Below are positions 1 through 31,551 of a stretch of 64,000 nt of DNA, one piece after another (the first letter of the stretch is position 1; the number at the start of each line of letters is the position of its first letter). Where the stretch lies: the NCBI RefSeq assembly GCF_001445575.1, contig NZ_CP013200.1, positions 4,258,480 through 4,322,479 of the forward strand. Reading direction: 5' to 3'. The DNA is from Arthrobacter alpinus (GTDB taxonomy: Bacteria > Actinomycetota > Actinomycetes > Actinomycetales > Micrococcaceae). The notes below the pieces were generated by a model. It was given only the letters and a program-made list of their open reading frames with translations, was not told the origin of the DNA and made no database searches. A program made the position numbers and the translations under genes.

Positions 1-1573
1 GGTCCCCCGAAGCACCAGGACGGCCACGATAGTAGTGGGCCGGGTACTCGTCCTCTTCCAAGGTAGTGACAGCAGTCCACTCTCCTGACGGAGACTGATA
101 TCCGAAGTTGACCGCCGACATGGTGTCGTCGATACGCAGGATCTGATCCTTCACACGCTTGCGACCCTCAATCGAAAACCGCAGAATCTCTTCGATCTCC
201 GCACCAGTTGCTTGCTCATGAGGGTAGAGCAATTTCATCAGACCCGAGAAGGTTTTGTGGATGCCGTCACGGTCGCGTGTAGAGATGTCCGCACCGAGAC
301 TGAAGTGGGGCTGGTAGCGGTCGGAGTAGTCTAGGTTTCGCATCGACTTGAGCACCTCTGCAATGTAGTCGACCACAAAGCCATAGCCGTTGGAGAACAT
401 CTCTCCGCGGATCGTGTCGATTTCCCATCCCGGGATGTAGAAGTGCAGTCGGTCGAGGTAAGCCGAGTCATGGTAGCTCTCGGGCAGCTCGTCAAAGAGG
501 TCGGAATGCTTGAGCATGTACGGCACAGTCCTGGAGGTGTTGCCGACGAACACCATGGATGCTTCAGCGCCGTGAGGCTCCACGCCACGGGAGAACGACT
601 TGTTCGCCATGTAGTTCTTCATGATGTCCACTAACGCTTTGTCGGTACGCTTCTTCTTGCCAGCAAATTCGTCGAATGCCACGACATCCCAGTAGCCGAC
701 GAGTCCGATGCGGCCGTTGGCGTTGTTGACGAAGAGCTTAGGCACAGTGATCTCACCGCCAGAAATTAACATCCCGTGGGGAGAAAACTCCGAGTAGATG
801 TGCGACTTTCCGGTACCCTTGGGTCCTAGCTCTACAAGGTTGTAGTTGCGCTCAACGAACGGGATAAGACGGACAAGTTGGAGCAGTTTGGCCCGACGTC
901 CAAACTGATCGGGATTGAAACCGATCGACTGGATCAGCAGATCGATCCACTCGTCAGTGCTAAATTTCGCCCTCGCCTCGAGGTAGCCATCGTAGTCGAA
1001 GCTCGACATTTGGATGGGCTTCAGGCTCCCGAGAATCCACGGCACCACCTTCGCGTTGTCACTATGGAAGTATTCGATGTCGCACATGCACCATACGCCG
1101 CTGACGAGCAGCTTCTGGTTGGCGTTGACCGTGTGCGGGTCAACGAGAACACCGTTTATACCGAGGTTCGAGAAAGATGCCTCGTAGGTGTCGTCTTTCT
1201 CATTCAGTGTCACACTGACGCGGTCGATGACGCGGAAACGCCCCTTCTCGCGGATTTTCGACTTGATCAGCTCGTTCTCATTGCGGTGCACGTAATGCTC
1301 CGCAAGAATCCGCCTCACTGTCTCGATACCCTCCTGAATCCCGGCCTCGACGTCGGTCGCGGCATACTGCCCCAGCAGGTACTCCAATACATAGGAAGGT
1401 ACTATCGCGTTGCCCTTGACAGTCTTGACGAGGTCCTTACGGACCACGGCACCTGCAAAGTGCTCGTTGATCTTGCGGTCCAAGTCGCTCTGCGGCACCT
1501 TCGACTGTGGGAAAACATCATCCAAGTCGTCGGCAACCATCGCCTGGAAGATCAGATCGATCTCGTCGCTCAT
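1..1573 (-). CDS. brxL: BrxL, Lon-like AAA+ ATPase of type 1 BREX (partial, 3' end off window)
   Basis: About 524 codons are visible; the gene continues past position 1, and the family is usually near 680 residues, so roughly the last quarter is missing. The start is the ATG at 1571-1573, which overlaps the pglZ stop in an ATGA arrangement. The N-terminus contains the family hallmark VVRKDLVKTVKGNAIVPSYV, followed by LEYLLGQY. A Walker A motif (GPKGTGKS) lies around 790-830, followed by SGGEITVPKLFVNN and a VAFDEFAGK Walker B-like stretch. BrxL is the AAA+ effector of type 1 BREX, structurally related to MCM-like and Lon ATPases, and is required for phage exclusion but not for host methylation. 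It is the last gene of the operon, as is usual for the type 1 order. Confidence 0.95.
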   Translation of the reverse strand, partial: MSDEIDLIFQAMVADDLDDVFPQSKVPQSDLDRKINEHFAGAVVRKDLVKTVKGNAIVPSYVLEYLLGQYAATDVEAGIQEGIETVRRILAEHYVHRNENELIKSKIREKGRFRVIDRVSVTLNEKDDTYEASFSNLGINGVLVDPHTVNANQKLLVSGVWCMCDIEYFHSDNAKVVPWILGSLKPIQMSSFDYDGYLEARAKFSTDEWIDLLIQSIGFNPDQFGRRAKLLQLVRLIPFVERNYNLVELGPKGTGKSHIYSEFSPHGMLISGGEITVPKLFVNNANGRIGLVGYWDVVAFDEFAGKKKRTDKALVDIMKNYMANKSFSRGVEPHGAEASMVFVGNTSRTVPYMLKHSDLFDELPESYHDSAYLDRLHFYIPGWEIDTIRGEMFSNGYGFVVDYIAEVLKSMRNLDYSDRYQPHFSLGADISTRDRDGIHKTFSGLMKLLYPHEQATGAEIEEILRFSIEGRKRVKDQILRIDDTMSAVNFGYQSPSGEWTAVTTLEEDEYPAHYYRGRPGASGD

Positions 1574-4080
1574 CAGAAGTCCCACCCGTCGTCGCTCGTG
1601 AAGGCGCGTTTGACCGCGTACGGCGCACCCTTATATTTCTTCCACTGGTCGGTGCCTTCGATCGGCTCCAACAGGCGGAACTCAACGCTCTGGTTGTTCG
1701 CCGCGTCTGCGTCCTTACTCAGCAGAAGCCGGACGATCTGGAAACGATCCCGTCCCTCACCGCTCTCTGAATCAAAGACCATCTCCTGTTCATTGGAGAT
1801 CAGTTGCTCTCCGAAGTAAAGTCCCGCGCGCAGGCGCCTAGCAGTGACCTTGGGTTCAACTTTCATCGACTGGTAGAGCTTCACCACGATCTGGCCGGTG
1901 GTGATCTTGTCAGACTCCGGGTGAATGTCGACGTTGACCCTCTCTACCGTCGTGGAACGGCCCTTGTTGATCGAGACGACTGGCACCACGATCTCCTGCA
2001 GCGAAGCACCACCGTGCACGAACTGAAACCCGGAACCCGGCTTGACGATCCGGTGGATCGAGTTCGGGATCTGCACCTCCAGATCACTGGACAACCCAAC
2101 CTGGTGAGGCTGGAAGGTTCGGAACGCGGCGTCTTCCTTCAGCCCCCGGCCAAGCACGTATCGACGCTTCTCGGCCACGATCTGGTCACCCTGCGGTTTG
2201 ACTGTGAGGTTGAACTGCGTCGCGAGTTTGGAACGCTGGTATAGGAACCCGTGGTCGGCAGTGACGAAAATGTTCGTCGCGTTGGCGTTGGCAAGTTTCT
2301 TCACGATATCTACAAGGTGATCCAGCGATTCAGACACTGCTGCGAACGTGCGGTGTTCCGACTTCGAACTGTCACCCGTAGCATCAATCGTGTCGTGGTA
2401 GACGTACAGCACCTGATTCGACGAGTACAGATCACGTCGTTCAGCTGGCTTCATCTCGACGAAATCCTTCGCCTGGATGGCCGTTCCCCCGACAGCCTCA
2501 AGGATCTTGCTGCGATTGGCAGAGCCATCAGACCTCAACCCGTCAACGAGGACCGGGTCACCGTTCATCGAATGGGCAAGCGTTTTGTGCGGCAGGAGAG
2601 CAGCCATCCCCAGCTGGGTGTAGCTCGGGAGCACGCCAAGCATGGCATCGGTCTTTGCGTCGAACTTGTCCAGGCCAAGGATTCGGGTTTCAAGTTCCTT
2701 GGCGACCTCGAACCGCATGGCATCGGAGATCACCACGACGGCTTTCTTGTTCCCGCCCTTGGTGAGCTTCGCGACGTACTTCTCGTAGAATTCAGACTGC
2801 GAGGTCGCTTCCGGTGTGCGCCACCGCTGCACCGCATCGACCTGTTCCTGCCACGACATGCCCAGGGGCGCCACGAAGTCCGTCACGTACGCGGCTTCGA
2901 CCTGTTCGGCAAGTTCATCGAGCGGCTGCTTGAACTCCGCAGTCAGGTATGCGTATGTGAACTGGCGGTATCGCTGATCGATACGGAACAAGTCGTCCCT
3001 GTACCGGGTCAAGCCTTCATCGAAACTTGCGAATTCAAGGCGCGCGGCGCGGATTGCAGGGATGAGTTCCGCAGCAGCAGTTAGCGCCTCATAGAGCATG
3101 GCGTAGTCCTCGAACCAGAAGCTGCCATGACGCCGAACACCGATGGTCTCGAGGATCTCACGCTGCGGCATCGTCTGGTTGACGATGCCGTCGACCAGAC
3201 GACGGATGATCTCTCTCTCGGCGGCCTCGAAAATGTCGGCATCCCTGAGAGTCTCCCACGGGAGCCCGGCTACCTGTTCCTCGTATGCGAGGTCACCTTC
3301 AGCCTTGCGGGCCAAGATCTTAATCGCGGAGGCACTTCGCTTCGAGTCACGGAAGCTGCGGAAGTCGATTGCGAGATTACGCGCGCCCTTCGAAGACGTG
3401 ACGTCGAAACCATCACGGGCCTGCTGGAACATCCACAGCACGAATCCCGGAATGGTCGGAGCCGCCGACAGGTAACCGTAGATGTGCTCAGCGCCACTCC
3501 AGTGGAACTCTGCGAGTCCGAGTTTGCTCAGGGCGTCCCAACCAGAGGTCTCGCCCTGTGCGTGATGAGACAGCAGCGTGCGCGTGAGATCAGAGAAGCT
3601 GTGTTCCTTCTGACAGATCGCGACGGCGGACATTTTCGCCTGCACCGTCACCAAATCGTCGCTGGGCAGTAGCAGTATCTTCAGACTCTCGACTAGCTTG
3701 GAGTCGGAGAAGAACGCAGGGTGCTCAGTGACCAGCGCGTCCGAGCCAGGCTCGGCTAGGCCCAAGCCCGCACGCAGGAGTGCACCACGGTCTGCTGTGA
3801 AGACAGGACCGTAAGCGAGCTCCACGTCGAGTAACCAGTTATTGGTGCCTTCAGTCGCCGCGCCCGAGCGATAGATCAGGAACTGTGATGCAGTGTCCTC
3901 GCGGAGCACACGGTGCTTTATCGCGAATTCGTCATCTGCGACCCTCAGCACCGAGACGCCGTCGGGCACTTGGCTATCCAGTTCAGCCGCGTAACCGCCG
4001 TCGGAGTCTTGCCACACAACGATGCGCTGATTTGCAAAGCGGACTGCAAGATGATCATGGATTGACGGCGCCTTGCTCAC
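1573..4080 (-). CDS. pglZ: PglZ, alkaline-phosphatase-superfamily protein of BREX
   Basis: The product has 835 residues, the usual size for type 1 PglZ (type A). Metal-site motifs of the alkaline phosphatase superfamily are visible: VVVISDAMRFE (Asp at about residue 453) and IFVTADHGF (about 604-612), with YHDTID between them near 561. PglZ is a core BREX component needed for defence; its target in the cell is not settled. Its start overlaps the stop of the PglX C-terminal ORF (ATGA at 4077-4080) and its stop overlaps the brxL start, so the three are translationally coupled. The N-terminus MSKAPSIHDHL fits the family, so the start is secure. Confidence 0.96.
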   Translation of the reverse strand: MSKAPSIHDHLAVRFANQRIVVWQDSDGGYAAELDSQVPDGVSVLRVADDEFAIKHRVLREDTASQFLIYRSGAATEGTNNWLLDVELAYGPVFTADRGALLRAGLGLAEPGSDALVTEHPAFFSDSKLVESLKILLLPSDDLVTVQAKMSAVAICQKEHSFSDLTRTLLSHHAQGETSGWDALSKLGLAEFHWSGAEHIYGYLSAAPTIPGFVLWMFQQARDGFDVTSSKGARNLAIDFRSFRDSKRSASAIKILARKAEGDLAYEEQVAGLPWETLRDADIFEAAEREIIRRLVDGIVNQTMPQREILETIGVRRHGSFWFEDYAMLYEALTAAAELIPAIRAARLEFASFDEGLTRYRDDLFRIDQRYRQFTYAYLTAEFKQPLDELAEQVEAAYVTDFVAPLGMSWQEQVDAVQRWRTPEATSQSEFYEKYVAKLTKGGNKKAVVVISDAMRFEVAKELETRILGLDKFDAKTDAMLGVLPSYTQLGMAALLPHKTLAHSMNGDPVLVDGLRSDGSANRSKILEAVGGTAIQAKDFVEMKPAERRDLYSSNQVLYVYHDTIDATGDSSKSEHRTFAAVSESLDHLVDIVKKLANANATNIFVTADHGFLYQRSKLATQFNLTVKPQGDQIVAEKRRYVLGRGLKEDAAFRTFQPHQVGLSSDLEVQIPNSIHRIVKPGSGFQFVHGGASLQEIVVPVVSINKGRSTTVERVNVDIHPESDKITTGQIVVKLYQSMKVEPKVTARRLRAGLYFGEQLISNEQEMVFDSESGEGRDRFQIVRLLLSKDADAANNQSVEFRLLEPIEGTDQWKKYKGAPYAVKRAFTSDDGWDF

Positions 4081-5057
4081 TCAGATGCCTCCAGACCTTT
4101 GATTGGGCGCAGCGCCGGGTAAAAATTCGGGTAATTTACCTTTACACCGTCATCGAGGTTGATCTCGACCTTCTGGATGTCCAGCGGATAGAGCACGTCA
4201 TGCTCGTAGTCCCGCAGCTCAGCCAGAACAGCGCGCAGCCGGTCGGCTTCATTCTGATCCTGTGCTGACGCACCGCCGGCGGCAGCTTCCTCAGCACGCT
4301 GAAGGCCGACTTCGAGCTTGGCGCGGTACTCGCGCAGGTATTCGTTCAACACCGTCGAGACCGTCGCCGGGGTGTAGCGGTGCAAGTAGATCAAAGCGTT
4401 GAACGAGCCCTTGGGTGAGGAGAACATCCAGTAGATAGGGCGCTTTTTGTAGCGCTGCACGTGATCGTCGTAGAACTTCGAGCGTGAGATGCTCCGACCC
4501 GATGGGTTCGACTTCATGATGAAGTAGTCACGGATGGTCTTCACACCCAATGATTCCTCGACGAACCGCAGGTTCTCTTCGAAGCACTCAACGCCGAACG
4601 CGACGCGCAGGAACTGACGGAAACGCTCAACTATGTCGTCCTCGAACCAGCCATCGTCAACGAACGGGATGACGTTATCAGCGTCAGGCATGAACGTCGG
4701 CGACTGCACGTTCGTGAGGTAGTCCTGAAGCGTTGAACTCTGATCCGCAAGGATCAGGCCCGGCTTGTCCAGACTGTAGCGACCGAACATGCAGCCGACC
4801 GCATACGAGATGAGGTCGACGACGGCGGACTCCGCGAACTGGACATCGCGCTCCTCGGGCGTCTTGTTTGGCCACCGAAACGCGGAGTTGTTGGTGAGCG
4901 ATACACGCTCGAGCGGTACGTGCGAGCCAACCTCGTCCTCGAGTCCGTAGAGCTTCGCGACGGCTTCGTTGTTCTCGATCTCCAGCTGTTGCTGAGCGTG
5001 CGAGCGCGCCGCCCACTCTTCTCGATGTTGCGCAACGGTCTGTTCAAGCGTCTTCAA
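4077..5057 (-). CDS. pglX: C-terminal third of the BREX methyltransferase PglX, encoded as a separate ORF
   Basis: The 326 residues match the conserved C-terminal part of type 1 PglX, not a whole protein: LYGLEDEV near the start, then LISYAVGCMFGRYSLDKPGL, later IYWMFSSPKGSFNALIYLHRY, and YEHDVLYPL with LDDGVKVNYP at the end. In ordinary PglX (about 1200 residues) this follows directly after the target-recognition region ending in an RNPL-like motif. Here that region ends at 7651, and an inverted cassette and a recombinase gene lie between. Translation probably starts at TTG 5055-5057: an AAGGA sits 6 bases upstream and an in-frame TAA lies just before it, so it cannot be fused to anything upstream. 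Inference: the protein assembles in trans with the 843-residue N-terminal part. It could also be a gene broken by insertion, but the tight ATGA coupling to pglZ and the intact frame argue for function. Confidence 0.85.
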   Translation of the reverse strand: MKTLEQTVAQHREEWAARSHAQQQLEIENNEAVAKLYGLEDEVGSHVPLERVSLTNNSAFRWPNKTPEERDVQFAESAVVDLISYAVGCMFGRYSLDKPGLILADQSSTLQDYLTNVQSPTFMPDADNVIPFVDDGWFEDDIVERFRQFLRVAFGVECFEENLRFVEESLGVKTIRDYFIMKSNPSGRSISRSKFYDDHVQRYKKRPIYWMFSSPKGSFNALIYLHRYTPATVSTVLNEYLREYRAKLEVGLQRAEEAAAGGASAQDQNEADRLRAVLAELRDYEHDVLYPLDIQKVEINLDDGVKVNYPNFYPALRPIKGLEASE

Positions 5058-5118
5058 CGGGGTTCCTTACGAGAGTTCGCCGAGGTATCGATTTTCACCG
5101 CCGACCGGTTCCCCGGCA

Positions 5119-5149
5119 CAGCAGGGTAGCCATTGGGATAGCCGAAGTG
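5119..5149 (+). repeat. putative recombinase site, left of the integrase gene
   Basis: The stretch GCAGGGTAGCCAT, then GGATAGCC and GAAGTGA, closely resembles the sequence on the other side of the integrase gene (6410-6446: GCAGGGTAGTCAT, GGGTAGCC, GAAATGA), in the same orientation. Each site carries two imperfect direct copies of a GGGTAGCCAT-like decamer. Paired similar sites immediately flanking a tyrosine recombinase gene suggest attachment or accessory binding sites, but this is inference from similarity only. Confidence 0.45.
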
Positions 5150-5161
5150 ATTCTTCTCAGT

Positions 5162-6379
5162 CTACCGGCCAAGTCCGAGCATTTCCGCGGATGCCGCGAG
5201 TGCCGCTCGGGTCCTCGTGTTATCAGAGTGCAGGTAGGACTGCGTGCTCAGCATAGAGGAGTGCCCAAGAACGGCCTTAATCGTGGTCTCGTCGATCCCG
5301 CTGGCGAGCAGCAGAGTGGCTGCTGTATGACGTGCCTCGTACAGCAAGGGCCTCCTACTACTGCCATCCGGAAGAGTGACCGTTACCTCTGCTTCCGCCA
5401 CGATCTCGTACCACAGCCGGCGGTCCAGCTCTGCCGATCGTGGGGCGCCGTCGTCTCGGGGCCAGACGAGTCCGCACGGGGACGATGGCGCACAGTCTGC
5501 CCAAGAGGAGAGCGCATCGACGAGCCAAGGCACCAGCGGGATAACGCGGCTCCCGGCACGGGTCTTAGGCCGGACCAGATGGTAGGCGCCATGGATCTGG
5601 CGGGACTCGAATCCGCGAGGGACCCGGAATCCACTCTCGGGTTTTCTGGCCTCGACGTACGGCAGTGCCTTGAGTTGCCAGGCAAGCGTAATCGTCTCAG
5701 CTGCAAGGTCTACCATGTCCCAGGTCAGCCCCAGTGCCTCCGCGGGGCGCAGCCCTTCTACGAGCGCCGCGACCCATCGCGAGGCGTCTGGGCGGGTGGT
5801 AGCCACAGCGAGAATCTTCGCCGCGGCCCCTGCGTTCAGGGACTGCCGTGGGGAGCTCCCGGCACCAGGGCCACCCGCCTCCCGTGCGCGTTGTGGGACT
5901 CTGTACCCCTCGGCGACCGCGTCAGAGAGCATCTTGCTGAGCACCGCGTGTGTGCGCTGCATCGTGGCGAGTGCTAAACCGGCTTGTTCCTGGGCCGTCC
6001 TGACCTTCCGGATGTCTGCGGGCACGAGGGCATCGAGGCGCAGGTGCCCTATAGCCGGAACAATCCACTTGCTGATTCCAGAGCGATCAGAGACGTACGT
6101 GCCGGGTCGGATGATGTGCTGTCGCTCTTCGAGCCACCGATCGGCCCACCGCTTGACTGTGACGCTATCCCACGTCTGGTCGGTGTGCCCCTCGGCCGCA
6201 ATCCGCTGCTGTGCCTCAGCGAGTCGGGCCCGAACCACGGCCTTCGTATGCGCCTTCAAGGTGACGCGGCGACGCGTTCCGCGTTCCGTCCACCCGGCCT
6301 CAATCGAGGCTACCCACTGTCCCCGAGAGTTCTGGTAGACCGAGCCGGTTCCTTTGCTGCGCTGCTTGGCCGTAGGCAT
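5162..6379 (-). CDS. tyrosine recombinase (phage-integrase family) inside the pglX locus
   Basis: The 405-residue protein has the full layout of a site-specific integrase: a basic N-terminal segment resembling an arm-binding domain (KGTGSVYQNSRGQWVASIE), a core-binding domain around residues 70-150, and a catalytic domain with the first Arg in EGLRPAEALGLTW, the box II signature EARHTAATLLLASG, and the LGHSS ... YLH segment carrying His and the Tyr nucleophile. It looks intact. It lies between the inverted pglX cassette and the PglX C-terminal ORF and reads in the BREX direction, 104 bases upstream of that ORF. Recombinases beside duplicated, inverted pglX segments are known for some type 1 BREX loci, so a role in switching the cassette is the best inference. 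It could instead be a solo integrase that inserted itself here, since similar short repeats flank it. Confidence 0.9.
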   Translation of the reverse strand: MPTAKQRSKGTGSVYQNSRGQWVASIEAGWTERGTRRRVTLKAHTKAVVRARLAEAQQRIAAEGHTDQTWDSVTVKRWADRWLEERQHIIRPGTYVSDRSGISKWIVPAIGHLRLDALVPADIRKVRTAQEQAGLALATMQRTHAVLSKMLSDAVAEGYRVPQRAREAGGPGAGSSPRQSLNAGAAAKILAVATTRPDASRWVAALVEGLRPAEALGLTWDMVDLAAETITLAWQLKALPYVEARKPESGFRVPRGFESRQIHGAYHLVRPKTRAGSRVIPLVPWLVDALSSWADCAPSSPCGLVWPRDDGAPRSAELDRRLWYEIVAEAEVTVTLPDGSSRRPLLYEARHTAATLLLASGIDETTIKAVLGHSSMLSTQSYLHSDNTRTRAALAASAEMLGLGR

Positions 6380-6409
6380 GGCTCAATGATAAGTGAGACT
6401 ATGCCGGCT

Positions 6410-6446
6410 GGCAGGGTAGTCATCAGGGTAGCCATCCGAAATGACA
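6410..6446 (+). repeat. putative recombinase site, right of the integrase gene
   Basis: Partner of the site at 5119-5149: GCAGGGTAGTCAT, CAGGGTAGCCAT and GAAATGA in the same order and orientation. It lies between the integrase start codon and the left 691-bp inverted repeat. Confidence 0.45.
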
Positions 6447-6515
6447 ACTGAAGCGGGACGAAGTGGTTAGGAGAGCCGGAAGCCGACATCAATGCGCGGC
6501 GACTCCTGAACACAA

Positions 6516-7206
6516 CACAGTTTATGAAGGATCAATACCCCACCGGCAAGGCCGACCTCATGACGGCGTTTATGATCCGCGCCCAGGAACTTACGGTTCA
6601 TGGTGGAACCTGGGCAATGATCAATCTCCCGTCGTGGATGTCATTGAAGTCGTTCGAAGACCTGCGGCACGACCTTATTGAAAACCAACGAATCGTGTCC
6701 ATGGTCCACCTTGGGCGTGGCGTCTTTGGCTCGGACTTCGGATCCGTCGCCTTCGTGATCGACAACGTTTCGGCAAAGTCGTCACGTGGCGTATATAGGC
6801 GGCTCTTTGAGAAGCACGTGGATGTCCGGTCGGTGTCTACGATCGAGGCTCTGTTCAGCGACTCTTCGTACAACCGTTACGAGGTATTACAGGAGGATTT
6901 TGCGGCGATCCCGGGCTCCCCGATTGTCTACTGGCTTAGTGAGAAGATGCGGGGAGCCTTCGCAACTGGTCGTCCTCTCAGCGACGTCGCCAATCTCCGG
7001 CAGGGATTGGCGACCGCTGACAACAACCGTTTCCTTCGCCTGTGGTGGGAGGTCTCGGATAACCGCACCGCGCTTACTTGCACGTCACGTGAAGAGGCCG
7101 CGTCAAGTGGTGCACGTTGGTTCCCGTACAACAAGGGCGGTGAATTCCGAAAGTGGTACGGCAACCATGAGTACGTGCTCAACTGGGAACACGACGGCGC
7201 AGAGAT
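6516..7206 (+). repeat. 691-bp inverted repeat, left arm of the invertible pglX cassette
   Basis: This segment is the reverse complement of 8063-8753. The boundaries were read base by base: the outer end is CACAGTTTATGAAGG and the inner end is GGCGCAGAGAT, after which the copies diverge. Both arms are exactly 691 bp. Their translations agree in the coding frame and in the shadow frames, so nucleotide identity is at or near 100 percent. The segment encodes about 230 residues of PglX, from just after the NPPY motif to the beginning of the variable target-recognition segment. Confidence 0.93.
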
Positions 7207-7615
7207 CGTCGATTTCAAGCCACGTTCGGTAATTCGTAACCCTGGGACATACTTTTCACCGTCAGTGTCATGGTCCAAGATCAGTAGCGGCGCCCCAGCT
7301 TTCAGGGCCTATCCAGCTGGTTTTATCTACGACGTCGCAGGCACCTCGATGTTCACGACGACGGATCGTGAGCGAGCTGGTTTGCTCTCCTTCGTAAATT
7401 CGCAGGTGGCACTTGAGCAGTTGGCTGCGGTCGCTCCGACGCTCAACTACGAGGTGGGGCAAGTCGCTGGCCTACCTGTGGCAGACGCGGCCGTGGACAA
7501 CGGAGTTGTTCGCGCCGCAATAGCGGTCGATGAGGCTAAGGAGGATTGGGACGACTTCGAGACCTCCTGGGAATTCGCGCGGAACCCGCTCGTCTCCCTC
7601 TTCGAACGTGGATAG
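6524..7615 (+). pseudogene. pglX: silent, inverted partial pglX carrying the alternative target-recognition 3' end
   Basis: An open frame of 363 codons beginning MKDQYPTG, corresponding to PglX residues 480 onward; the methyltransferase motifs DPACGSG and NPPY are absent, so it cannot work alone. Residues 1 to about 228 are identical to the expressed copy. The last ~136 residues (from 7207) are homologous but divergent: both versions keep TYFSPSVSWS, ISSG, APTLN, VG, LPV and a final W.F.RNPLV, but differ in much of the rest. The other copy runs the opposite way and ends at 7651, so the two stop codons face each other 35 bases apart. Inversion through the arms would join this 3' end in frame to the PglX N-terminus (AEI|VD here against AEI|RN in the expressed copy). 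No promoter or ribosome site is evident. Confidence 0.9.
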
Positions 7616-8062
7616 CCGACAATTCCACCTTGCCCTCAGTCCCCACATGGTCAGGCAAGTGCAACCAAGGGGTTACGTTCAAAGTTCCACGACATCTCGG
7701 AGAGGTCCCAATCCGTTCGAGACGTCTCAACCAGATTGCCCGTGTTCGCCGGAAGTCCATCAAATCCAGAGGCAACTGGAAGCTTTCCCACATCGCCAAC
7801 CTGGAAGTTGAGTGTCGGCGCGATGGCCTTGAGTACTTCGCGGGCGACACTGGAGTTCATTAGCACGGCAACTTGATCGAGTAGTCCTTCGCTTCCGAAC
7901 GCAGACATTCCCTTCACATCGTGGATGAACCCGCTCGGAAATCTCCGGAATGCGGCTTCACCGGATGAGATATCGGACCATGACACTGACGGTGAAAAGT
8001 ATGTTGAAGTGTTTTGAGCACGCGAGCGTGGTCGACCACCTTTCTCAGTACCGAAATTTCGT
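7207..8062. other. invertible segment with two alternative target-recognition ends of PglX, tail to tail
   Basis: The 856 bp between the inverted repeats hold the divergent 3' end of the silent copy (7207-7615, plus strand) and that of the expressed copy (7651-8062, minus strand). Recombination anywhere within the arms would reverse this unit and exchange the ends without disturbing either reading frame. Confidence 0.85.
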
Positions 8063-10182
8063 ATCTCTGCGCCGTCGTGTTCCCAGTTGAGCACGTACTC
8101 ATGGTTGCCGTACCACTTTCGGAATTCACCGCCCTTGTTGTACGGGAACCAACGTGCACCACTTGACGCGGCCTCTTCACGTGACGTGCAAGTAAGCGCG
8201 GTGCGGTTATCCGAGACCTCCCACCACAGGCGAAGGAAACGGTTGTTGTCAGCGGTCGCCAATCCCTGCCGGAGATTGGCGACGTCGCTGAGAGGACGAC
8301 CAGTTGCGAAGGCTCCCCGCATCTTCTCACTAAGCCAGTAGACAATCGGGGAGCCCGGGATCGCCGCAAAATCCTCCTGTAATACCTCGTAACGGTTGTA
8401 CGAAGAGTCGCTGAACAGAGCCTCGATCGTAGACACCGACCGGACATCCACGTGCTTCTCAAAGAGCCGCCTATATACGCCACGTGACGACTTTGCCGAA
8501 ACGTTGTCGATCACGAAGGCGACGGATCCGAAGTCCGAGCCAAAGACGCCACGCCCAAGGTGGACCATGGACACGATTCGTTGGTTTTCAATAAGGTCGT
8601 GCCGCAGGTCTTCGAACGACTTCAATGACATCCACGACGGGAGATTGATCATTGCCCAGGTTCCACCATGAACCGTAAGTTCCTGGGCGCGGATCATAAA
8701 CGCCGTCATGAGGTCGGCCTTGCCGGTGGGGTATTGATCCTTCATAAACTGTGAAAGGAGCGCACCCATCTGCTTCCCGCCCATGTACGGCGGGTTGGCA
8801 ATCACCACCGTGTACTTCGTCGAGAGCACCTCGGCCTGGTGCACCACCCGATGCGCATACTCCAATGTCTGGCCGTAGAGCAGATCGTCATCAAGGATCG
8901 ATAGAACCTCTGCTGCACCCTTTGCCATGTCACCATCCGGCTGGATCAGCGAACCGAGCGTGTCAGCATCGCGGAACTGATTCCAGAACGTCTCCTCCGT
9001 ATGGCGGTCGCCTGACTTGGTGACGAGGAAGTCCAATTCGTCAGGAGCGAAGGAGAGCGGCTCAATCACGCAGATCTGCGGATCGACGTCACGGGCAAAA
9101 AAGCGGCGATCCTTTGCGCGTGCCTTCATCGTGAGCGCAAACCCAGCGAGTGCTCCTGCACGAGGGTCAATTTCGGTGCCGTGCAAGTTATGCGCAAGGA
9201 TGAGGCTCGGGATCACCGACGGCGCGTAACCCTCCTCTTCGTAGATGGCATAGAGCAGGTCGAAAGCGTAAGTGAGCATGTGGCCTGAGCCGCAGGCCGG
9301 GTCGATCACGGTCAGTTCTTCCGGCTCGGTGATCTTTAGGACGGCAGTTTCTTCATCGACGGGAGCTATGTAGTAGTCCATCTGATCGACGAGCCGCGAG
9401 GTCGGGCGGTTGAGCATCCACAACCGGCCGAGAGAGTTCTCGACGAGGTAGCGGACGATCCAGTGCGGGGTGAACAGCTGGGTCGCTGCCGGGATCTCGT
9501 CTGCGCCAGCCTTCTTGTTCTTCTTGAATCCGGCGAAGACCTCGTCTTTCCGCTCGGATACATAGAACTGGTAGAGCCAGCCGATAACCTCGACGTCTTC
9601 ACACACCTCCGCGTTCAGCACCTCGTGAGCACGAGAGAGGAACGCACCGTCAGCAAGAAGCCCGGAAGGGACGAGAAGTTCGGTGTAGTCACCTTCGCGT
9701 TCGAACATGAATGGCATGGCCTTGTTCCAGAACCGGCAGTACTCGGTCAGGAGCAACGCGTATGCCTCCCCCTCAGCGTCTGTGCTGCGACGGGTACCCT
9801 CGAGGAGACCCATGACGGCCTCACGAGTGCGTGGGGTGGTAACCACCTCGGTGTCGAGGTGACCACGTTTGGCATCGGCAAGGATTTCGGGCTGGCCATG
9901 AGCGTGGCCTTGTGCAGGTGAGACGACTCGAGCGCTGGTGTAGCCGCGGGCATCCATGTAGCGCAGGGCGATGAGCCGGTTGAACCAGGTGTAGGCGACC
10001 TTGTCGATCACGTGCTTCTGGCCGTGCTGCGCGATCTCGGCTTCGAGCCGCTTCACTGTCTGGCCACGCTCGCTCCGCTCAACGGAACCTACAGCAAGTA
10101 CCGCGGCGGCTCGGGCCTCGACGGAGGCGATGAGTTCCCGGCGGGCTTGGGTGGCGAATCGCTCCAGGGGCTTGGTATCCAT
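7651..10182 (-). CDS. pglX: PglX N-terminal part: BREX adenine-specific DNA methyltransferase with switchable C-terminus
   Basis: The 843-residue protein contains the N6-adenine methyltransferase core: SAM-binding motif I DPACGSGH at 294-301 and catalytic NPPY at 463-466. Residues of about 478-708 are encoded by the right inverted repeat, and 709-843 by the invertible segment, ending ERNPLVALA. PglX methylates the non-palindromic host BREX sites and its C-terminal half sets sequence specificity. Ordinary type 1 PglX is about 1200 residues; the missing C-terminal third is at 4077-5057. The ATG at 10180-10182 lies 17 bases after the brxC stop. Changing the 3' end by inversion would probably change the recognised motif, giving phase-variable modification and defence. 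Confidence 0.94.
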   Translation of the reverse strand: MDTKPLERFATQARRELIASVEARAAAVLAVGSVERSERGQTVKRLEAEIAQHGQKHVIDKVAYTWFNRLIALRYMDARGYTSARVVSPAQGHAHGQPEILADAKRGHLDTEVVTTPRTREAVMGLLEGTRRSTDAEGEAYALLLTEYCRFWNKAMPFMFEREGDYTELLVPSGLLADGAFLSRAHEVLNAEVCEDVEVIGWLYQFYVSERKDEVFAGFKKNKKAGADEIPAATQLFTPHWIVRYLVENSLGRLWMLNRPTSRLVDQMDYYIAPVDEETAVLKITEPEELTVIDPACGSGHMLTYAFDLLYAIYEEEGYAPSVIPSLILAHNLHGTEIDPRAGALAGFALTMKARAKDRRFFARDVDPQICVIEPLSFAPDELDFLVTKSGDRHTEETFWNQFRDADTLGSLIQPDGDMAKGAAEVLSILDDDLLYGQTLEYAHRVVHQAEVLSTKYTVVIANPPYMGGKQMGALLSQFMKDQYPTGKADLMTAFMIRAQELTVHGGTWAMINLPSWMSLKSFEDLRHDLIENQRIVSMVHLGRGVFGSDFGSVAFVIDNVSAKSSRGVYRRLFEKHVDVRSVSTIEALFSDSSYNRYEVLQEDFAAIPGSPIVYWLSEKMRGAFATGRPLSDVANLRQGLATADNNRFLRLWWEVSDNRTALTCTSREEAASSGARWFPYNKGGEFRKWYGNHEYVLNWEHDGAEIRNFGTEKGGRPRSRAQNTSTYFSPSVSWSDISSGEAAFRRFPSGFIHDVKGMSAFGSEGLLDQVAVLMNSSVAREVLKAIAPTLNFQVGDVGKLPVASGFDGLPANTGNLVETSRTDWDLSEMSWNFERNPLVALA
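8063..8753 (-). repeat. 691-bp inverted repeat, right arm of the invertible pglX cassette
   Basis: Reverse complement of 6516-7206, lying inside the expressed pglX. The outer end falls within the codons for SQFMK just after the NPPY region; the inner end is at the codons for AEI. Confidence 0.93.
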
Positions 10183-10199
10183 GTGTATCTCTACCTGTC

Positions 10200-13100
10200 T
10201 TAGAGCGTGATGCGCTTGTTGTCGTTAATCGTGGTGAGGAGGGTCGCGCGGAGCTTGTCGAGATAAGCGTCGATGTCGTCCACGGTTTCGAGGACCTGGC
10301 CAGTGCCCGGCAGCACGAGCTTCTTGATGGAGACGGTCTGCTTGATCGGCGCAGGTTTGGGTTCCGGCTCCTTACCGGGGCCAGCCTGCGGGCTGGGTGC
10401 GGGAGCTGGCTTCGCTGCCGCCAGCTCGTCGAGAATCCACGGATAGACCGTGTCAGCGAACTGGTTCGCCTGGTTCCAAATGACCGGGATCTGCGTCTCG
10501 TGCTGCACACGGTCGAGCACGGCTTCCGCGCGCTGAGTCACCGACTGCTGTGCTGCCTCGGTTGCTGCCTCGTAGGTATTGCTACCAGGCACTTGCTGCC
10601 AATAGGCGTTGATCGATTCCGTGGCAACAGTGCGTTCGGCATTGATCAAACTCTGCAGCTGGTCTTCCAGCTCGTTCACCGCCTTGCCGAGTTGCTGGGT
10701 CTTATTGCCGCGGAAGATCTGTACATCTTCCAGAGCGAAGCTAACCATGTCCGCGGCACCAGCGGGTAGGTAGGCGATGTTGGATTGGTTGGTCTGCATG
10801 AAGGTCAACGCGTTCTCGAAGATACTGCGTTGGTTGCCGTTGAGGAACGCCTTAATCGGGTCGATCACGTTGTCTTTGGCATCGAGCAGATCGTCGGCAT
10901 CACGGAAGTCGGTGATGAACCAGTCTGCCTTGTGACCGCATAGTTCAGTGAGCATCTGGATCGGCTCATCGAGCTGGTCGATGAACGTGAACCCTGAAGC
11001 GGTGCGCAAAGCCTTCAGTTCGGCCAGCTTGACTTCCAGGTGTTCCTTGCCGGCGTGAGCCAGTTCCAGCGGGTCCTTGGCGATACCGCCGTCGTCGGTG
11101 AACTCCACGACGAACTTGCGGAAGGCGTTGACGATCTTCGGGTCGAACACACGCTGCGGTGCGACGACCATTGCAGAGTAGCTCTGCGTGTTGCGCAGCG
11201 CGCTGGTGATCTCTGTGCGAGCAAGGACCTTGCCGTTGAGTTGTATCTCGATCTTCGATTGTCCGGCCAGATACGCCACGACTGTGGCGATGGACCACTG
11301 GTCCCAGCCAAAGGGTTTCGCCGAGTACCGGTCGATGAGTTGGCGCATGGTGACCTGCTCGTGGCGGTTGCTGCGCAGCTCCAAATGACCGAGTACATCG
11401 GAACCCGGAACATCAAGGATGCTGGCAGTCTGCTCGAACAGGGCGTCCCCGTTTGGGTTCACGAGCCCGCCTAGTCCTTGCTCGGTGAAGGCTTTGCCGG
11501 CCAGCATGCCGAGATTCGTGTACGTCGCTGCGATGACTTTCTGGAAGCCTTCGTTGATGCGAGTCAGCGCATCGACGGAGTTGGCGTCGAGCACGGCCGC
11601 GTTGTGGATCAGCGTCGAGTTGCCCACCGCTGAGCGCAGGCGTTCGACGATCTCCTTCTCGCGTTCGGCGTTCTGGGTTCCCTTGGACTGCAGGATGGTC
11701 TGCTCGATCGCGGTGCGGCTCGACCCCTGAGCGCGCCTGACGTACTTCTCGGTTTTCAGCAGCAGCCGCAGCTCTCCGAGGACGCGGTTGGCCCCGGAGG
11801 GGAGTACTACACGCAGTTCGTCGAGGCCGGCACTGTGTGCCTTGATCTGTTCGAGGCTGAACTCGGTCTCAGGGCTGGTGACATGCAGTGACAGTTCGTG
11901 CTGCTTGCCGTACGAGGTGCCGTCAAGCTTGTACCCGAAGGTGAAGTTCTGTCCGGTCTTGTAGGCCGTCTTGTTCGTCTTGACAACTGACTCGGAGATC
12001 AGCTTGAAGAGCTTGCCGGAGATCTCGGAGTTGTCGATGTCGACGTTCTTGATCGCCTGCTCGATCTTCTGTTCTTCGTTGGTCAGGTAGTCGTACAGGT
12101 CACCGTTTCGCTGAATGTATGTCTGGGCTTCCAGAGCGTTCAGGGCCGCGTTGACGTCCTTACCCAGCTGCGCAACATCGGTGCCGAAGCAGTCATAAAC
12201 CAGTACGGTGAGGTTGCGGGCGGTGGCCTTGAACGTATCGACATACTTGACCAGAAACAGGGCCTTTAGCAGTCGAACCGCCAGCGGCGGCAAAGACGGA
12301 CTGCGCTCGGCATCATTGATGGCACGCTGGTTGGCGGACTTCAGCGAGGCCCGGATGCCCTCAAACATCTGATCGAAAGAAGCCAACGTGCCCAGCGGCT
12401 TGTCGGCAAGGCCAGTGGCGACCTGCTGGACGACGCCGAGCATGGAGCGCTCTCCGACAGAGCTGTTACGGCCTTCAAAGATGTTGTGGTCGCTGATGCC
12501 TTCGATCGCGGATTGGAACAACGGGAACTGGTAGCTCACGAACGGGTAGGTTCCTACGAAGTGTGCCTCGTCCCGGAAGTTCGGGTAGTGGCGTCCCTCG
12601 ACGAAGTCGAACAGAGTCTTGAAGTTCGTATGCTCGGCTCCGTAGATGGCGGCGACGTCACCGGCGCCAATATCGGTCTTAGCGAGCAGGCGCTTGCGGA
12701 TGACCTCTTCGACGTCCTGGCTGGTGAGCTTGAGGCGGTTCTTGAAGCGAGCCTGGATCTTCGAGAAGTCGTTGGCCTGTTGCTTGGTACGGTCTCCGCC
12801 GACCTTCTCCATATCCTCCTGCGAGGTGACAAAGATCCAAGCATGCCCCTGGCACTTGGTGGCCAGGGACTCGGCTATTGTCTGAAGGTTGAGCATCAGC
12901 TTGGTGTTGGTGCCGATGAACTGGCCGACTTCGTCGACGAAGAAGTTTAGCCGGTAGCCCTCCGGCTGCGCAGCCAGCCAGGCGGCGACCTCATCCGCGA
13001 AGTCCTCGATCGAGACCGAGTAGCTGATTGAGTATTGGCGGATGATGCCGGGGCTCTCGGCGCCATTGACCACGGCGAATGCCTTGTCAATGTTGCCAGC

Positions 13101-13709
13101 CTCTAGCGCGGACTGTTCACGCCCCTGCGACCACGGAATCCCAGCAACGCGCTCGAAGGCGTCCTTGAAAGCTGCATACTGGCCGCGGGCGTCAAGGTCG
13201 CGTTCGAAGCGTGCGATGTGGCCTTGGTTGCCGTAATAGCCACGGGACTCGTCGAAGATCTTCACGAACACCTTCAGCAAGGCGTCGTTTTGGTCTTTCG
13301 AGATCAGTGTGGCTTTCTGATCGATGTTGAACAGCAGGCTCTTGGCCGCGATCCGGTCGGCTTTTTCGATCAGGGCCGGCAGGAACGCATCGTCAGCCTT
13401 GGCCCTGAACTGATCAGAGACTTGAGCGCGTGGGTAGACGTGGCCGTCGATGTCGCCCAGCAGGTGCGCGAGCATCTTCAGGAGGTGGGACTTACCGGAA
13501 CCGAAGAAGCCGGAGATCCACACGCCATTGGCGTTGGTGTAGTTGGTGTAGGCCTCCAGGACGTGCTCGACGCCTTTGGCGGCCTCGTTTGTGAGTACGT
13601 ACTCCTCGACCTCGGTGGCCAACTGCGAGGTGTCATCGGCCTTGATGACGCCCTCGATCGTTCGGTCGATCCGCTTGGCGAAAATCTCGTTGATTAGGTT
13701 CACGCTCAT
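10200..13709 (-). CDS. brxC: BrxC, large P-loop ATPase of BREX
   Basis: The start is the ATG at 13707-13709 (MSVNLINEIF), preceded by GGAGG-like bases and overlapping the brxB stop by ATGA. A longer in-frame extension upstream reads as antisense-like sequence and is rejected. The 1169-residue product has a Walker A motif GFFGSGKS at 67-74 and FFVDEVGQFIG as a Walker B-like segment. It is the right size for the BrxC/PglY ATPases, which are core components of BREX needed with PglX for methylation and defence. A low-complexity Pro/Ala stretch (PAPAPSPQAGPGKEPEPKPAP) near the C-terminus looks like a linker before a short final domain. Confidence 0.96.
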   Translation of the reverse strand: MSVNLINEIFAKRIDRTIEGVIKADDTSQLATEVEEYVLTNEAAKGVEHVLEAYTNYTNANGVWISGFFGSGKSHLLKMLAHLLGDIDGHVYPRAQVSDQFRAKADDAFLPALIEKADRIAAKSLLFNIDQKATLISKDQNDALLKVFVKIFDESRGYYGNQGHIARFERDLDARGQYAAFKDAFERVAGIPWSQGREQSALEAGNIDKAFAVVNGAESPGIIRQYSISYSVSIEDFADEVAAWLAAQPEGYRLNFFVDEVGQFIGTNTKLMLNLQTIAESLATKCQGHAWIFVTSQEDMEKVGGDRTKQQANDFSKIQARFKNRLKLTSQDVEEVIRKRLLAKTDIGAGDVAAIYGAEHTNFKTLFDFVEGRHYPNFRDEAHFVGTYPFVSYQFPLFQSAIEGISDHNIFEGRNSSVGERSMLGVVQQVATGLADKPLGTLASFDQMFEGIRASLKSANQRAINDAERSPSLPPLAVRLLKALFLVKYVDTFKATARNLTVLVYDCFGTDVAQLGKDVNAALNALEAQTYIQRNGDLYDYLTNEEQKIEQAIKNVDIDNSEISGKLFKLISESVVKTNKTAYKTGQNFTFGYKLDGTSYGKQHELSLHVTSPETEFSLEQIKAHSAGLDELRVVLPSGANRVLGELRLLLKTEKYVRRAQGSSRTAIEQTILQSKGTQNAEREKEIVERLRSAVGNSTLIHNAAVLDANSVDALTRINEGFQKVIAATYTNLGMLAGKAFTEQGLGGLVNPNGDALFEQTASILDVPGSDVLGHLELRSNRHEQVTMRQLIDRYSAKPFGWDQWSIATVVAYLAGQSKIEIQLNGKVLARTEITSALRNTQSYSAMVVAPQRVFDPKIVNAFRKFVVEFTDDGGIAKDPLELAHAGKEHLEVKLAELKALRTASGFTFIDQLDEPIQMLTELCGHKADWFITDFRDADDLLDAKDNVIDPIKAFLNGNQRSIFENALTFMQTNQSNIAYLPAGAADMVSFALEDVQIFRGNKTQQLGKAVNELEDQLQSLINAERTVATESINAYWQQVPGSNTYEAATEAAQQSVTQRAEAVLDRVQHETQIPVIWNQANQFADTVYPWILDELAAAKPAPAPSPQAGPGKEPEPKPAPIKQTVSIKKLVLPGTGQVLETVDDIDAYLDKLRATLLTTINDNKRITL

Positions 13710-14314
13710 GCCTCCTGCTCCAGAATGTCTTTGGCCCGGTAGTAGCTGTCGCTGGCGCTGAGATTCAGCGCGCGTAACTGATGACCGGATGTCTGTGTGA
13801 ACTCGTAAATACCCGGAAACCATACGAGCATCGGCCGGCCAGTGACGACGCTCTGCAGGTTCTCCAGCACCGTGTGGGTGCGGATGAATGGGAAGACCTC
13901 ACCGATACCGGTGAGGAAAACCATGTCGCTGGGTTGATTATCCAGCAGTGCCCGGATGGCGGGTGCGAGGTGATCGTGGGGGTCAAGCATGCCCTGCAGC
14001 ACCTCGCGAAATCCCGCCTTATCCATCGTGGGTTCCAGGTCGAGGACTCGTTCCCACACGCCACGGTCCTTGAGTAGCCCTATGGCCAGGTCATAGAGAT
14101 TGATCTCCACGACACTCAGCCCGTCATCGCTCTGGAGCTTCGTCTTCACACGATCACACAAACCTTCAACGTCAAGTGCCCAAGCCGGCGGGAAGTGGTA
14201 GATGAAGAATGGGATTTCCTTGGACAGGCCCTCCATCTTCAAGAAGCGTTCGCTTCGAAGCACGTTATAGACGTGCTTCTCGTCGCTGACGAGGTCTCGC
14301 TGGGTGGAACTCAT
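13706..14314 (-). CDS. brxB: BrxB (DUF1788 family)
   Basis: 202 residues, typical for BrxB. Family features include the PFFIYHFPP stretch, VVEINLYDL, DMVFLTGIGEVFPFIRTHTVLENL and MLVWFPGIY. It is a core component of type 1 BREX without a settled biochemical role; it is needed for methylation and exclusion in studied systems. It overlaps brxA upstream (ATGA at 14311-14314) and brxC downstream, so it is translationally coupled on both sides. Confidence 0.95.
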   Translation of the reverse strand: MSSTQRDLVSDEKHVYNVLRSERFLKMEGLSKEIPFFIYHFPPAWALDVEGLCDRVKTKLQSDDGLSVVEINLYDLAIGLLKDRGVWERVLDLEPTMDKAGFREVLQGMLDPHDHLAPAIRALLDNQPSDMVFLTGIGEVFPFIRTHTVLENLQSVVTGRPMLVWFPGIYEFTQTSGHQLRALNLSASDSYYRAKDILEQEA

Positions 14315-14946
14315 TGCTGCACCTCGTTGTTAAACTGCGTGATCGGGGTCGTAGTCGGGAAGAACCGCAGGTCGCTCGGGCTTCGCGCTGCAAGGGTTTC
14401 GTATATACGTTCCGAAAGCACCGCGGGGTTGATGTTGTTCTTGTCGCCACGGAGACCCGCTTCGTGGAGCATCCGGAATATGTTCTGTCGAAGCTTTGCG
14501 CGAGTTGACGGCTTTAACTCGTCAAGCTCGGGGTGCCATAGGGATTTGCCAGTCATGAAACGTTCATAGTCTTCAAACTCGAGAGTTGGCGTCATCAGTA
14601 GGAACCGCTCTCGAACTACTTCTTCCGCGAAGTCGCCAATCAGCTCATAGCGTCGACACGCCGCAGCCCACATCAAGTGACACCGCTCGGTCAAGCTCGC
14701 TTCAGTCAGCAATTCAATCTCGTTATCCGTTAGGACCGCTAAACGTTGGATAGTCTCACGAGCTAAGCGATTATTCGACGACAATGTACGCGCTTGCAGG
14801 ACGTTGTTGTCAACAACCCGACGTCGGCTCGCTTGCCAATCATGGCAAGCGAGATAGATGGAGGCCACCACAAGGGCTTCGCGGGCTAGGAGGCCTCCGC
14901 TAGTGAAGGACAGCGCGAAGCGATCCTGTGCGTCAGATTCATTCAC
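14311..14946 (-). CDS. brxA: BrxA (DUF1819 family)
   Basis: The homologous part begins with FALSFTSGGLL and runs through ELIGDFAEEVVRER to KLRQNIFRMLHEAGL, characteristic of DUF1819/BrxA, a small helical DNA-binding protein. The frame is open up to 15093, but the upstream part overlaps the HTH gene and has no family resemblance. A very strong ribosome site, AAGGAGGAG at 14954-14962, points to the GTG at 14944-14946 (or the TTG three bases earlier), giving 211 residues, close to the usual size. First BREX core gene, coupled to brxB. Confidence 0.92.
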   Translation of the reverse strand: MNESDAQDRFALSFTSGGLLAREALVVASIYLACHDWQASRRRVVDNNVLQARTLSSNNRLARETIQRLAVLTDNEIELLTEASLTERCHLMWAAACRRYELIGDFAEEVVRERFLLMTPTLEFEDYERFMTGKSLWHPELDELKPSTRAKLRQNIFRMLHEAGLRGDKNNINPAVLSERIYETLAARSPSDLRFFPTTTPITQFNNEVQQ

Positions 14947-15037
14947 CAACAGGCTCCTCCTTCCGATTATTGGACCGTGGATCAGGATATGGGGAGCCAC
15001 CGACATAGGGGTCGAAGGCTCAGTGCGGCAGGATCGC

Positions 15038-15235
15038 TCAACTTGGCGCTGCGTCGCCTGAGGCAGCCGCACTTCCACGGCGAACCCAGTCATCGATCTC
15101 GCTTGCCTGAAACTTCCACAGGCGCCCGATCTTGTGGGCAGGCATGCCCTTCTCGCCGATCCATGTATAAACGGTGTCTTTGGTGACGCCGAGGTGAAGG
15201 GCGATGTCGTCGGCGGATAGCCATGGCTCGGTCAC
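15038..15235 (-). CDS. small excisionase/MerR-type HTH protein heading the BREX operon
   Basis: A 65-residue protein with one helix-turn-helix of the HTH_17/excisionase type: WLSADDIALHLGVTKDTVY, then IGRLWKFQASEIDDWV. The start is chosen as GTG 15233-15235 because AGGGAGGA at 15241-15248 sits six bases upstream; the longer frame to 15253 would place that site inside the gene. It precedes brxA by 91 bases on the same strand and probably regulates BREX expression. An excisionase role with the integrase at 5162-6379 is also possible. Confidence 0.85.
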   Translation of the reverse strand: MTEPWLSADDIALHLGVTKDTVYTWIGEKGMPAHKIGRLWKFQASEIDDWVRRGSAAASGDAAPS

Positions 15236-15511
15236 GTCGATCCTCCCTAGCACTGTGGCCAGGCAGCGGCCATTATCCCCATGCTACCGGATCTAGTCGG
15301 GTTTGTTCGGGGGTATCCCGGTATAGGCGGCCAGACTTCGACAACGTAGAAGCTAAGAGACATCGACGCAACTCGTTCAAAACTCAGCAGCCATTGCCCG
15401 TGAGGACTACTAACGCCTCTCCCCGCGAGACGAAATTTCAAGATCGTGTCCACCCGCACTGTGGCGAAACAGCTAATGGCACAGTGAATTACGTGATTCG
15501 CCATCGCGGCT

Positions 15512-16699: not shown

Positions 16700-16714
16700 G
16701 GCTTCATTCCTTCG

Positions 16715-17266: not shown

Positions 17267-17268
17267 GG

Positions 17269-23557: not shown

Positions 23558-23566
23558 GGCCGAGAC

Positions 23567-23857
23567 CTAGAATCCGAGGTTGAACGCGTTCTGCGACCAC
23601 AGGATGTAACCGTTGATGCCGCCCAGAATGGCGGCCACGGGTCCAGTCCAGAGCAAGATCATTCCGCCGCCAGACGCCAGACGTGAGGACTGGCTGAGCT
23701 TGCCAGCCAACAGCATGGCGGCACCGATGATCGCCACGATGGCGATCACGATGAACGCGCCGACGAGGATTCCGCCGCCAATTTCTTTGAGGGACTCGAG
23801 GAATGGGAAGTTGGTGTTCGGGGTGATCCCGGGATCCACCGCTGCCAGATACAACAT
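23567..23857 (-). CDS. small pilin-like (VirB2/TrbC-type) membrane protein
   Basis: 96 residues from MLYLAAVDPG; GGAG lies 7 bases before this ATG (23855-23857), so the longer frame from 23914 is rejected. Two hydrophobic spans (ILVGAFIVIAIVAIIGAAML, then ILLWTGPVAAILGGINGYIL) are separated by a short polar loop (SQSSRLASGGG), the layout of small conjugation pilin or inner-membrane subunits in actinobacterial ICEs. First gene of the conjugation block; the identification rests on topology and position. Confidence 0.65.
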   Translation of the reverse strand: MLYLAAVDPGITPNTNFPFLESLKEIGGGILVGAFIVIAIVAIIGAAMLLAGKLSQSSRLASGGGMILLWTGPVAAILGGINGYILWSQNAFNLGF

Positions 23858-31524: not shown

Positions 31525-31551
31525 GCGTCCACCTCATCGCTGCACTACTGC

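Follow-up and report, generated by a model that had tools for sequence, protein, structure and literature searches.

Can a defence system of the bacteriophage exclusion (BREX) kind change the DNA motif that it methylates and attacks while the rest of its complex stays constant? The question is raised by a stretch of 64,000 nucleotides of Arthrobacter alpinus (assembly GCF_001445575.1, contig NZ_CP013200.1, positions 4,258,480 to 4,322,479), which is called the window here and is part of a 4.33-Mb genome assembled in 2 contigs. It holds a BREX type 1 locus, with brxA, brxB, brxC, pglX, pglZ and brxL all present together. On the minus strand brxA, brxB and brxC are followed by the N-terminal part of pglX (N-part); a second pglX 3' end then lies on the plus strand, and an integrase gene, the C-terminal part of pglX (C-part), pglZ and brxL continue on the minus strand (Table 1). 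Judged from sequence comparison, this locus very probably carries a site-specific, two-state specificity switch that acts on a split PglX.

The search for direct and inverted repeats (minimum 25) returned one inverted pair only within positions 1-20000, far above chance, with arms of 691 nt each, 100% complementary and separated by 856 nt. These are exactly the repeats, bounded at 6516/7206 and 8063/8753, that a first-pass annotation of the window had announced. The gene calls likewise bear out its two pglX 3' ends lying tail to tail, their stop codons 35 nt apart, and its statement that both junctions share one frame: the cassettes read through from codon 479, for 365 and 364 residues. After inversion the predicted N-protein would count, by arithmetic, 478+364 = 842 residues versus 843 now. 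The exchanged ends, put at about 135 residues, measure 137 and 136 and are 48% identical to each other. Inverted repeats thus flank alternative coding ends, both of them in frame. Searches of the window genome with cassette DNA and with the N-part protein found no further cassette copy. The early picture of the locus stood as far as repeats and tail-to-tail copies go; it had overlooked the integrase and the separate C-part gene.

PglX is split in two: of the BREX-1 PglX model NF033452, the N-part covers positions 1-900 and the C-part positions 905-1208; the C-part aligns to the BrxX chains 8zek and 9ewz from residue 902. By the domain limits of Salmonella PglX given in excerpts of PMC11341690 (target recognition domain, TRD, 662-849; spacer helices 850-960), the split falls a little past the TRD, where the spacer region has just begun. 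Since the N-part stop and the C-part start lie 2.6 kb apart, the two are separate proteins. The 843-residue protein does not qualify as a type IIG or MmeI-like restriction enzyme, for no nuclease family is among its Pfam matches (E 0.001). Standalone C-parts form a large family, with 120 clusters listed (314-377 residues, 70-94% identity), among them proteins of Gordonia, Rhodococcus, Microlunatus and Raineyella; in that search, which covered proteins of similar length and also counted fragments, 7977 of 7991 scored candidates passed E 0.001.

Between the silent cassette and the C-part gene lies the integrase, outside the predicted invertible segment and beside its left arm, so that a recombinase gene of predicted activity is linked to the inverted pair. 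Its residues R211, K272, R350, H351, H373 and Y382, which we take to be the catalytic ones, are invariant in 13/13 aligned members. Identity to its counterparts in 11 related loci is 69-84%, and all 120 listed integrase clusters, the window's own included, show at least 72%. For 27 of the 120 listed C-part clusters, the longest contig is equally long as that of a listed integrase cluster (matched by eye). A plasmid scan with the integrase gave 2 records at about 31%. Viral contigs scanned with the C-part alignment gave 30 loci with a best segment identity of at most 52%, and a scan of them with the N-part gave no match.

The same association recurs in other actinobacteria. A contig scan with an alignment of 17 C-parts, from which the best 80 of 577 confirmed stretches were used, was combined with the window, the locus of genome G074 and the loci of a whole-genome search; two duplicates were dropped, and 89 pglX loci, one genome per species, were compared. 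The integrase is present in 12: the window, L016 (G074), L062 (G750), L066 (Speluncibacter), L067, L068, L070 (Ruaniaceae), L071 (Luteimicrobium), L072 (Acidipropionibacterium), L073, L077 (Actinomyces) and L079. A standalone C-part stands behind the integrase in 12/12, and a second cassette lies tail to tail with the first in all nine loci uncut by a contig end, the three others being cut. Window included, these nine complete and three cut loci spread the switch architecture over several actinobacterial families. This PglX split was found in 0/77 loci that lack the integrase, of which L113, cut by a contig edge, is undecidable. The shorter pglX frames among the latter (L102, L119, L129, L135, L143, L064, L065 and L104) all hold more than the C-part, starting within the TRD or still further upstream. 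Two of them, L119 (Pseudomonas benzenivorans, 2247-10981) and L135 (Rugamonas fusca, 5592-10975), display a second, different mode of splitting PglX: the N-part has 602 and 606 residues, respectively, the C-part has 614 and 597 with the TRD included, and other genes, one of them AAA ATPase-like by eye, lie between the pieces. Among the nine complete loci the start codon of the C-part is TTG in six and GTG in three, with a TAAGGA or GAGG stretch upstream. L016 has an extra open reading frame (ORF) of 414 residues (12511-13755) between C-part and pglZ, without NCBIfam match and absent from the window.

Evenly drawn genome samples show how often the arrangement occurs. In the family sample PglX was matched at E 1e-30 in 21 of 395 genomes (below 1e-200 in 14), and two of these, G000 and G074, have it split; in the order sample 20 of 396 had a C-part match, three of them standalone (G000, G750, G748), and a fourth short C-part frame, in G486, starts 55 bases from the contig start; in the class sample 6 of 394 had a match at E 1e-60, with one standalone (G000). 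A quick tree of C-domains puts the 12 switch loci inside one 14-row group (Shimodaira-Hasegawa-like approximate likelihood ratio support, SH-aLRT, 99), and the same free tree nests two long-branched fixed loci (L021, L022) among them. Constraining the 12 to one clade was narrowly not rejected by the approximately unbiased test (p-AU 0.059), and a single origin is possible.

Comparison of the nine complete loci points to a short site. Real as the 691-bp arms are, they are probably not the recombination site as such, because the eight other complete loci share only a core and a partly homogenised middle segment. The 13-bp core CACRGTTYATGAA marks the outer end of both cassettes, with the form CACAGTTCATGAA in 7/9 complete loci. 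From the core onward the two cassettes of each complete locus share sequence, and the flanks outside are unrelated; in the eight loci other than the window, whose cassettes have 360-386 residues (the frameshifted in-place cassette of L066 excepted), the exact match inward from the core ends after 13-33 bp. The core overlaps QFMK codons (RFMK in L077) behind NPPYMGGKQM or variants of it. Two inverted copies are present in 9/9 complete loci and one in each of the three cut loci, and the 16-bp form CACRGTTYATGAARGA occurs exactly twice in the whole 4.33-Mb genome, the reversed control giving 0. As the core pattern was derived from the switch loci themselves, fixed loci serve as control, namely 42 of the 77, picked as actinobacterial with a long frame: the core was found in 0/42, and the peptide at its position is variable and never FMK (41/42 compared; L098 left out). 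Fixed actinobacterial BrxX/PglX proteins form one frame of mostly about 1150-1330 residues, with no integrase of this kind in the stretch compared; the window N-part and C-part align to successive portions of such full-length proteins.

Table 1. Coordinates of the BREX locus, the cassettes and the putative core in the window.
Feature	Position	Strand	Basis or remark
brxL	2..1585	-	BREX family matches; extends past window start
pglZ	1573..4080	-	BREX family matches
PglX C-part, 326 aa: remaining spacer-helix region and C-terminal domain	4077..5057	-	TTG start, AAGGA at 5064-5068 upstream
Tyrosine recombinase, phage-integrase type, 405 aa	5162..6379	-	between silent cassette and C-part gene
Left arm, start of silent cassette	6516..7206	+	repeat search
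Putative core, silent side, CACAGTTTATGAAGGA	6516..6531	+	outer boundary, 16-bp form
Silent cassette, 364 aa, V1 type T, TRD type B	6521..7615 (opposite pglX copy 6524-7615)	+	tail to tail with in-place cassette
Differing tail, silent state, 136 aa and stop	7203..7615	+	cassette comparison
pglX N-part, 843 aa: N-terminal domain, methyltransferase domain, TRD	7651..10182	-	alignment to Salmonella PglX (8c45) ends at residue 886
In-place cassette, 365 aa, V1 type T, TRD type A	7651..8748	-	cassette comparison
Differing tail, in-place state, 137 aa and stop	7651..8064	-	cassette comparison
Right arm, inside in-place pglX	8063..8753	-	repeat search
Putative core, pglX side	8738..8753	-	outer boundary, inverted copy
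brxC	10200..13823	-	BREX family matches
brxB	13706..14314	-	BREX family matches
brxA	14311..15093	-	BREX family matches

The cassettes themselves fall into types that recur in different loci. Their first segments (V1) form types T, S and K and one single, with 61-87% identity within a type and 29-46% between types, the window's own pair being 100% identical; the TRD tails form types A and B (55-87% within a type, 38-53% between A and B), and the window's A tail is 57-66% identical to the other A tails. Written as in-place/silent pairs, the window is T-A/T-B, L016 K-B/T-A, L066 T-B/S-A, L070 and L071 S-A/K-B, L072 S-A/T-B and L077 S-A/single-B, and L062 and L067 have TRDs of other types. A and B are paired in 7/9 loci, with A in place in five and B in place in two (L016 and L066, the frameshifted in-place tail of the latter being typed B by an 80% tblastn match). 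The search of relatives for the opposite orientation, proposed in the first-pass annotation, thus finds homologous TRDs lying oppositely between genera (5 vs 2 loci). The specificity switch that it claimed gains support from these orientations, and also from the conserved core, from purifying selection and from the exchange of base-reading residues.

Frames are open in 9/9 silent and 8/9 in-place cassettes. The odd one is L066 of Speluncibacter jeojiensis (6279-7400), where the in-place cassette is frameshifted near residue 617 and the silent one is open, representing an off state, a sequencing error or decay. Silent/silent pairs have ratios of nonsynonymous to synonymous change (dN/dS; Nei-Gojobori method, NG86; approximate at a dS of 0.7-1.8) of 0.12, 0.15 and 0.27; silent/expressed pairs have 0.15, 0.15, 0.17 and 0.31, and the single expressed/expressed pair has 0.18. 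The C-part, by comparison, has 0.07-0.11, the integrase 0.13-0.15 and the constant N-part 0.11. In the window the tail is the sole part unique to the silent copy, all else being the same in the in-place cassette. Such values are most simply explained by switching, because sequence that is never expressed would not remain under purifying selection.

What the exchange would change can be read from the position of the cassette, which starts in the methyltransferase segment that follows NPPY, ends past the TRD and leaves NPPY and the C-terminal domain outside. In E. coli BrxX, according to excerpts of PMC11842806, recognition of base pairs 1-4 falls to the TRD and that of base pair 6 to a methyltransferase loop (587-601). 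The equivalents of the residues that read bases 1-4 and 6 fall within the cassette, and those holding the target adenine lie partly outside. A flip should change the methylated and attacked motif, because the base-reading residues lie in the exchanged stretch. In the window the two cassettes agree in every residue as far as the equivalent of BrxX residue 744 (their first ~230 residues), so only the TRD tail changes; the loop and the equivalents of K681 and D684 (base pair 2) are common to both cassettes, and at the equivalent of R751 (base pair 1) the in-place cassette has Q and the silent one R. One of the three base-reading positions compared in the tails differs (751), the matching being rough at 48% tail identity. 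A rough prediction is that the two window states differ at base 1 and share bases 2 and 6.

From these observations the following mechanism can be proposed. PglX would be made as two proteins, an N-protein with the methyltransferase and TRD and a constant C-protein with the spacer region and C-terminal domain. The tyrosine recombinase, as the likely agent, probably acts on the two inverted cores of ~13-16 bp that overlap the QFMK codons. Inversion of 6516-8753 would swap the last ~365 codons of the N-protein for those of the opposite cassette, each with its own stop, and both states, if active, would yield an N-protein that works with the constant C-protein. A flip would then change the methylated and attacked motif with the rest of the complex constant, and inversion within the strain would give it two methylation motifs and two phage ranges.

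Other readings account for part of the same evidence and are partly compatible with this switch. The 691-bp identical arms suffice for homologous recombination, and the segment might be inverted by a RecA-type process over these long arms with the integrase as a passenger. The middle segments are more alike within a locus than between loci in 8/9 cases, albeit in stretches whose choice favours such likeness, and a precedent exists in the pneumococcal spnIII inversion, which by the title of PMC6620402 is independent of all known pneumococcal site-specific recombinases. Yet in the eight other complete loci the first segments have diverged to 33-42% protein identity while core and integrase were kept, which makes homologous recombination unlikely as the route of inversion. 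It is very improbable that the locus serves on/off phase variation, with one cassette active and the opposite orientation turning BREX off: each window cassette is complete and has its own stop in the same position, PglX models match the two over the same span, and pairs with silent cassettes are under purifying selection, against which can be set the frameshifted in-place cassette of L066 and mentions in the literature of phase-variable pglX, through a homopolymer tract and also in Streptomyces.

The silent copy could also be a dead duplication, a leftover that is never expressed. The evidence for inversion is comparative, with one assembly per species, but the nine open silent frames, dN/dS of 0.12-0.31 in the seven pairs involving silent cassettes, the opposite orientations in relatives and the conservation of core and integrase leave this reading hardly credible. 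A unit that mainly captures or exchanges cassettes between BREX loci, in the manner of integrons or by gene conversion and with inversion secondary, would explain why cassette types are common to different families, why V1 and TRD types are variously combined and why the integrase is ~35% identical to those of actinophages. Each of the nine complete loci, however, has just two cassettes, searches of the window genome with cassette DNA and the N-part protein gave no further copy, and two inverted cores predict inversion, not insertion, so that capture as the main function is judged quite unlikely.

Several points weigh against the site-specific switch. The equivalents of BrxX residues 784 and 823 have the same letters (V, N) in both window cassettes and so give no sign of change at base pairs 3 and 4. 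Orientation rests on seven typed loci, of which L077 has a B tail of marginal assignment (55-64% identity to the remaining B tails), and the opposite orientations are seen between genera, in assemblies of one genome per species. One state of L066 may be off, unless an assembly error is responsible; the arms of the window may be a chimeric assembly, or could recombine over their full length by homology. Finally, the action of the integrase on the core is deduced from linkage, and the C-protein is a presumed partner of the N-protein.

Homologous exchange probably also happens, in the middle segments. There the two copies within a locus, in-place and silent, resemble each other more than either resembles those of the eight remaining loci in 8/9 cases (exception L062), the stretches having been chosen as within-locus matches, a choice that favours within-locus similarity; examples are L066, with 99.5% over 188 bp versus 88.8%, and L071, with merely 85.1 versus 83.4. 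Such exchange suggests that the 100% identity of the window arms reflects recent homogenisation. Type T of V1 is combined with A and B tails, A with T and S, and B with T, K and one single type. The seemingly homogenised middle segments and the occurrence of T with both A and B suggest that TRDs may also swap alone. Hence the switch may tentatively be seen as combinatorial, a possibility to be taken seriously without being favoured: V1 (base 6) and TRD (bases 1-4) would be exchanged by two routes, inversion at the core for both modules and homologous exchange of middle segments for the TRD, two cassettes giving up to four motifs, and the constant C-subunit would make this possible.

An inverted pglX with a recombinase is already known in lactobacilli, and the split PglX, the integrase outside the segment, the site and the recombinase itself differ in the present locus. 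Inverted partial pglX genes with a recombinase were reportedly described in type 1 BREX of lactobacilli by Goldfarb et al. in 2015. For L. rhamnosus, excerpts of PMC7513527 give full-length and partial PglX (1198 and 743 residues) with an integrase between them. One example of this lactobacillar type was analysed here, the Lactiplantibacillus plantarum plasmid NZ_CP035176.1 (L181). Like the window, the type has BREX type 1, an opposite partial pglX, an adjoining tyrosine recombinase and short inverted homologous stretches, and would operate in a similar way. In L181, by contrast, pglX is full length (1184 residues) and unsplit, whereas the window has a split gene with a constant separate C-terminal gene; the recombinase gene, placed between the full and the partial pglX, is part of the segment that would invert; the partial pglX matches BrxX 159-872 and no further; and the inverted matches measure 138 bp (95.7%) and 62 bp (83.9%), the longest at PglX residues 196-241, while the core of the window lies behind NPPY. 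The two recombinases are 25% identical over 252 residues. With a split PglX and a recombinase outside the inverted pair, the window is not a member of the lactobacillar type. In L181 (6346-13392) nothing in the partial pglX matches the C-terminal domain, and if the segment inverted at the 138-bp repeat, the resulting PglX would lack this domain. By annotation, the plasmid stretches covered in two Ligilactobacillus salivarius records hold one ordinary pglX; one record has a second place beyond these stretches.

Inversion systems of HsdS have a linked tyrosine recombinase. As proposed for the window, inversions swap specificity parts of a methyltransferase complex; HsdS is a separate specificity subunit, whereas the window has the combined methyltransferase-TRD protein of BREX. 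For pneumococcal hsdS, phase-variable DNA inversions in type I restriction-modification are the subject of PMC4948785 and PMC6620402. Actinophage integrases (Propionibacterium phages E6, Doucette and others; 20 records listed) belong to the same family as the window integrase at ~34-36% over 95-99% of the protein, and the window-type integrases, inside BREX loci, are a set distinct from them. The literature searched, parts of papers that did not extend to the loci list of Goldfarb et al. 2015, held no description of a split PglX or of this actinobacterial arrangement.

The surroundings of the locus suggest how it may travel. Upstream of brxA, at 15512-16699, lies a protein of anti-restriction type with ArdC N-terminal and IrrE-like peptidase domains. 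Further along are a TraG/TraD conjugation-type coupling protein (17269-19218) with an adjoining ORF (19089-20597) of weak AAA match, an NlpC/P60 protein (29702-30799) and a second phage-type integrase (34576-35922) that adjoins a tRNA-Thr gene (36101-36175). From the coupling protein, the NlpC/P60 protein and the integrase by tRNA-Thr (17269-36175), the BREX locus is probably carried by an integrative conjugative element. About 27.8 kb to the left of the window start, 26 nt match the tRNA-Thr region weakly (88%). At 24101-29641 is a 1846-residue NACHT-domain protein that nothing in the PADLOC library matches; it may be another defence NTPase of the same element. Two short tandem arrays of 32-34 bp units are at 40950-41033 and 42589-42686.

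If the proposed switch is true, BREX has a built-in means of target change that is common to actinobacteria of several families. PglX, one protein elsewhere, would be splittable just behind the TRD, its specificity part being exchanged and its C-terminal part constant. Such a design could guide the engineering of BREX specificity in laboratory strains.

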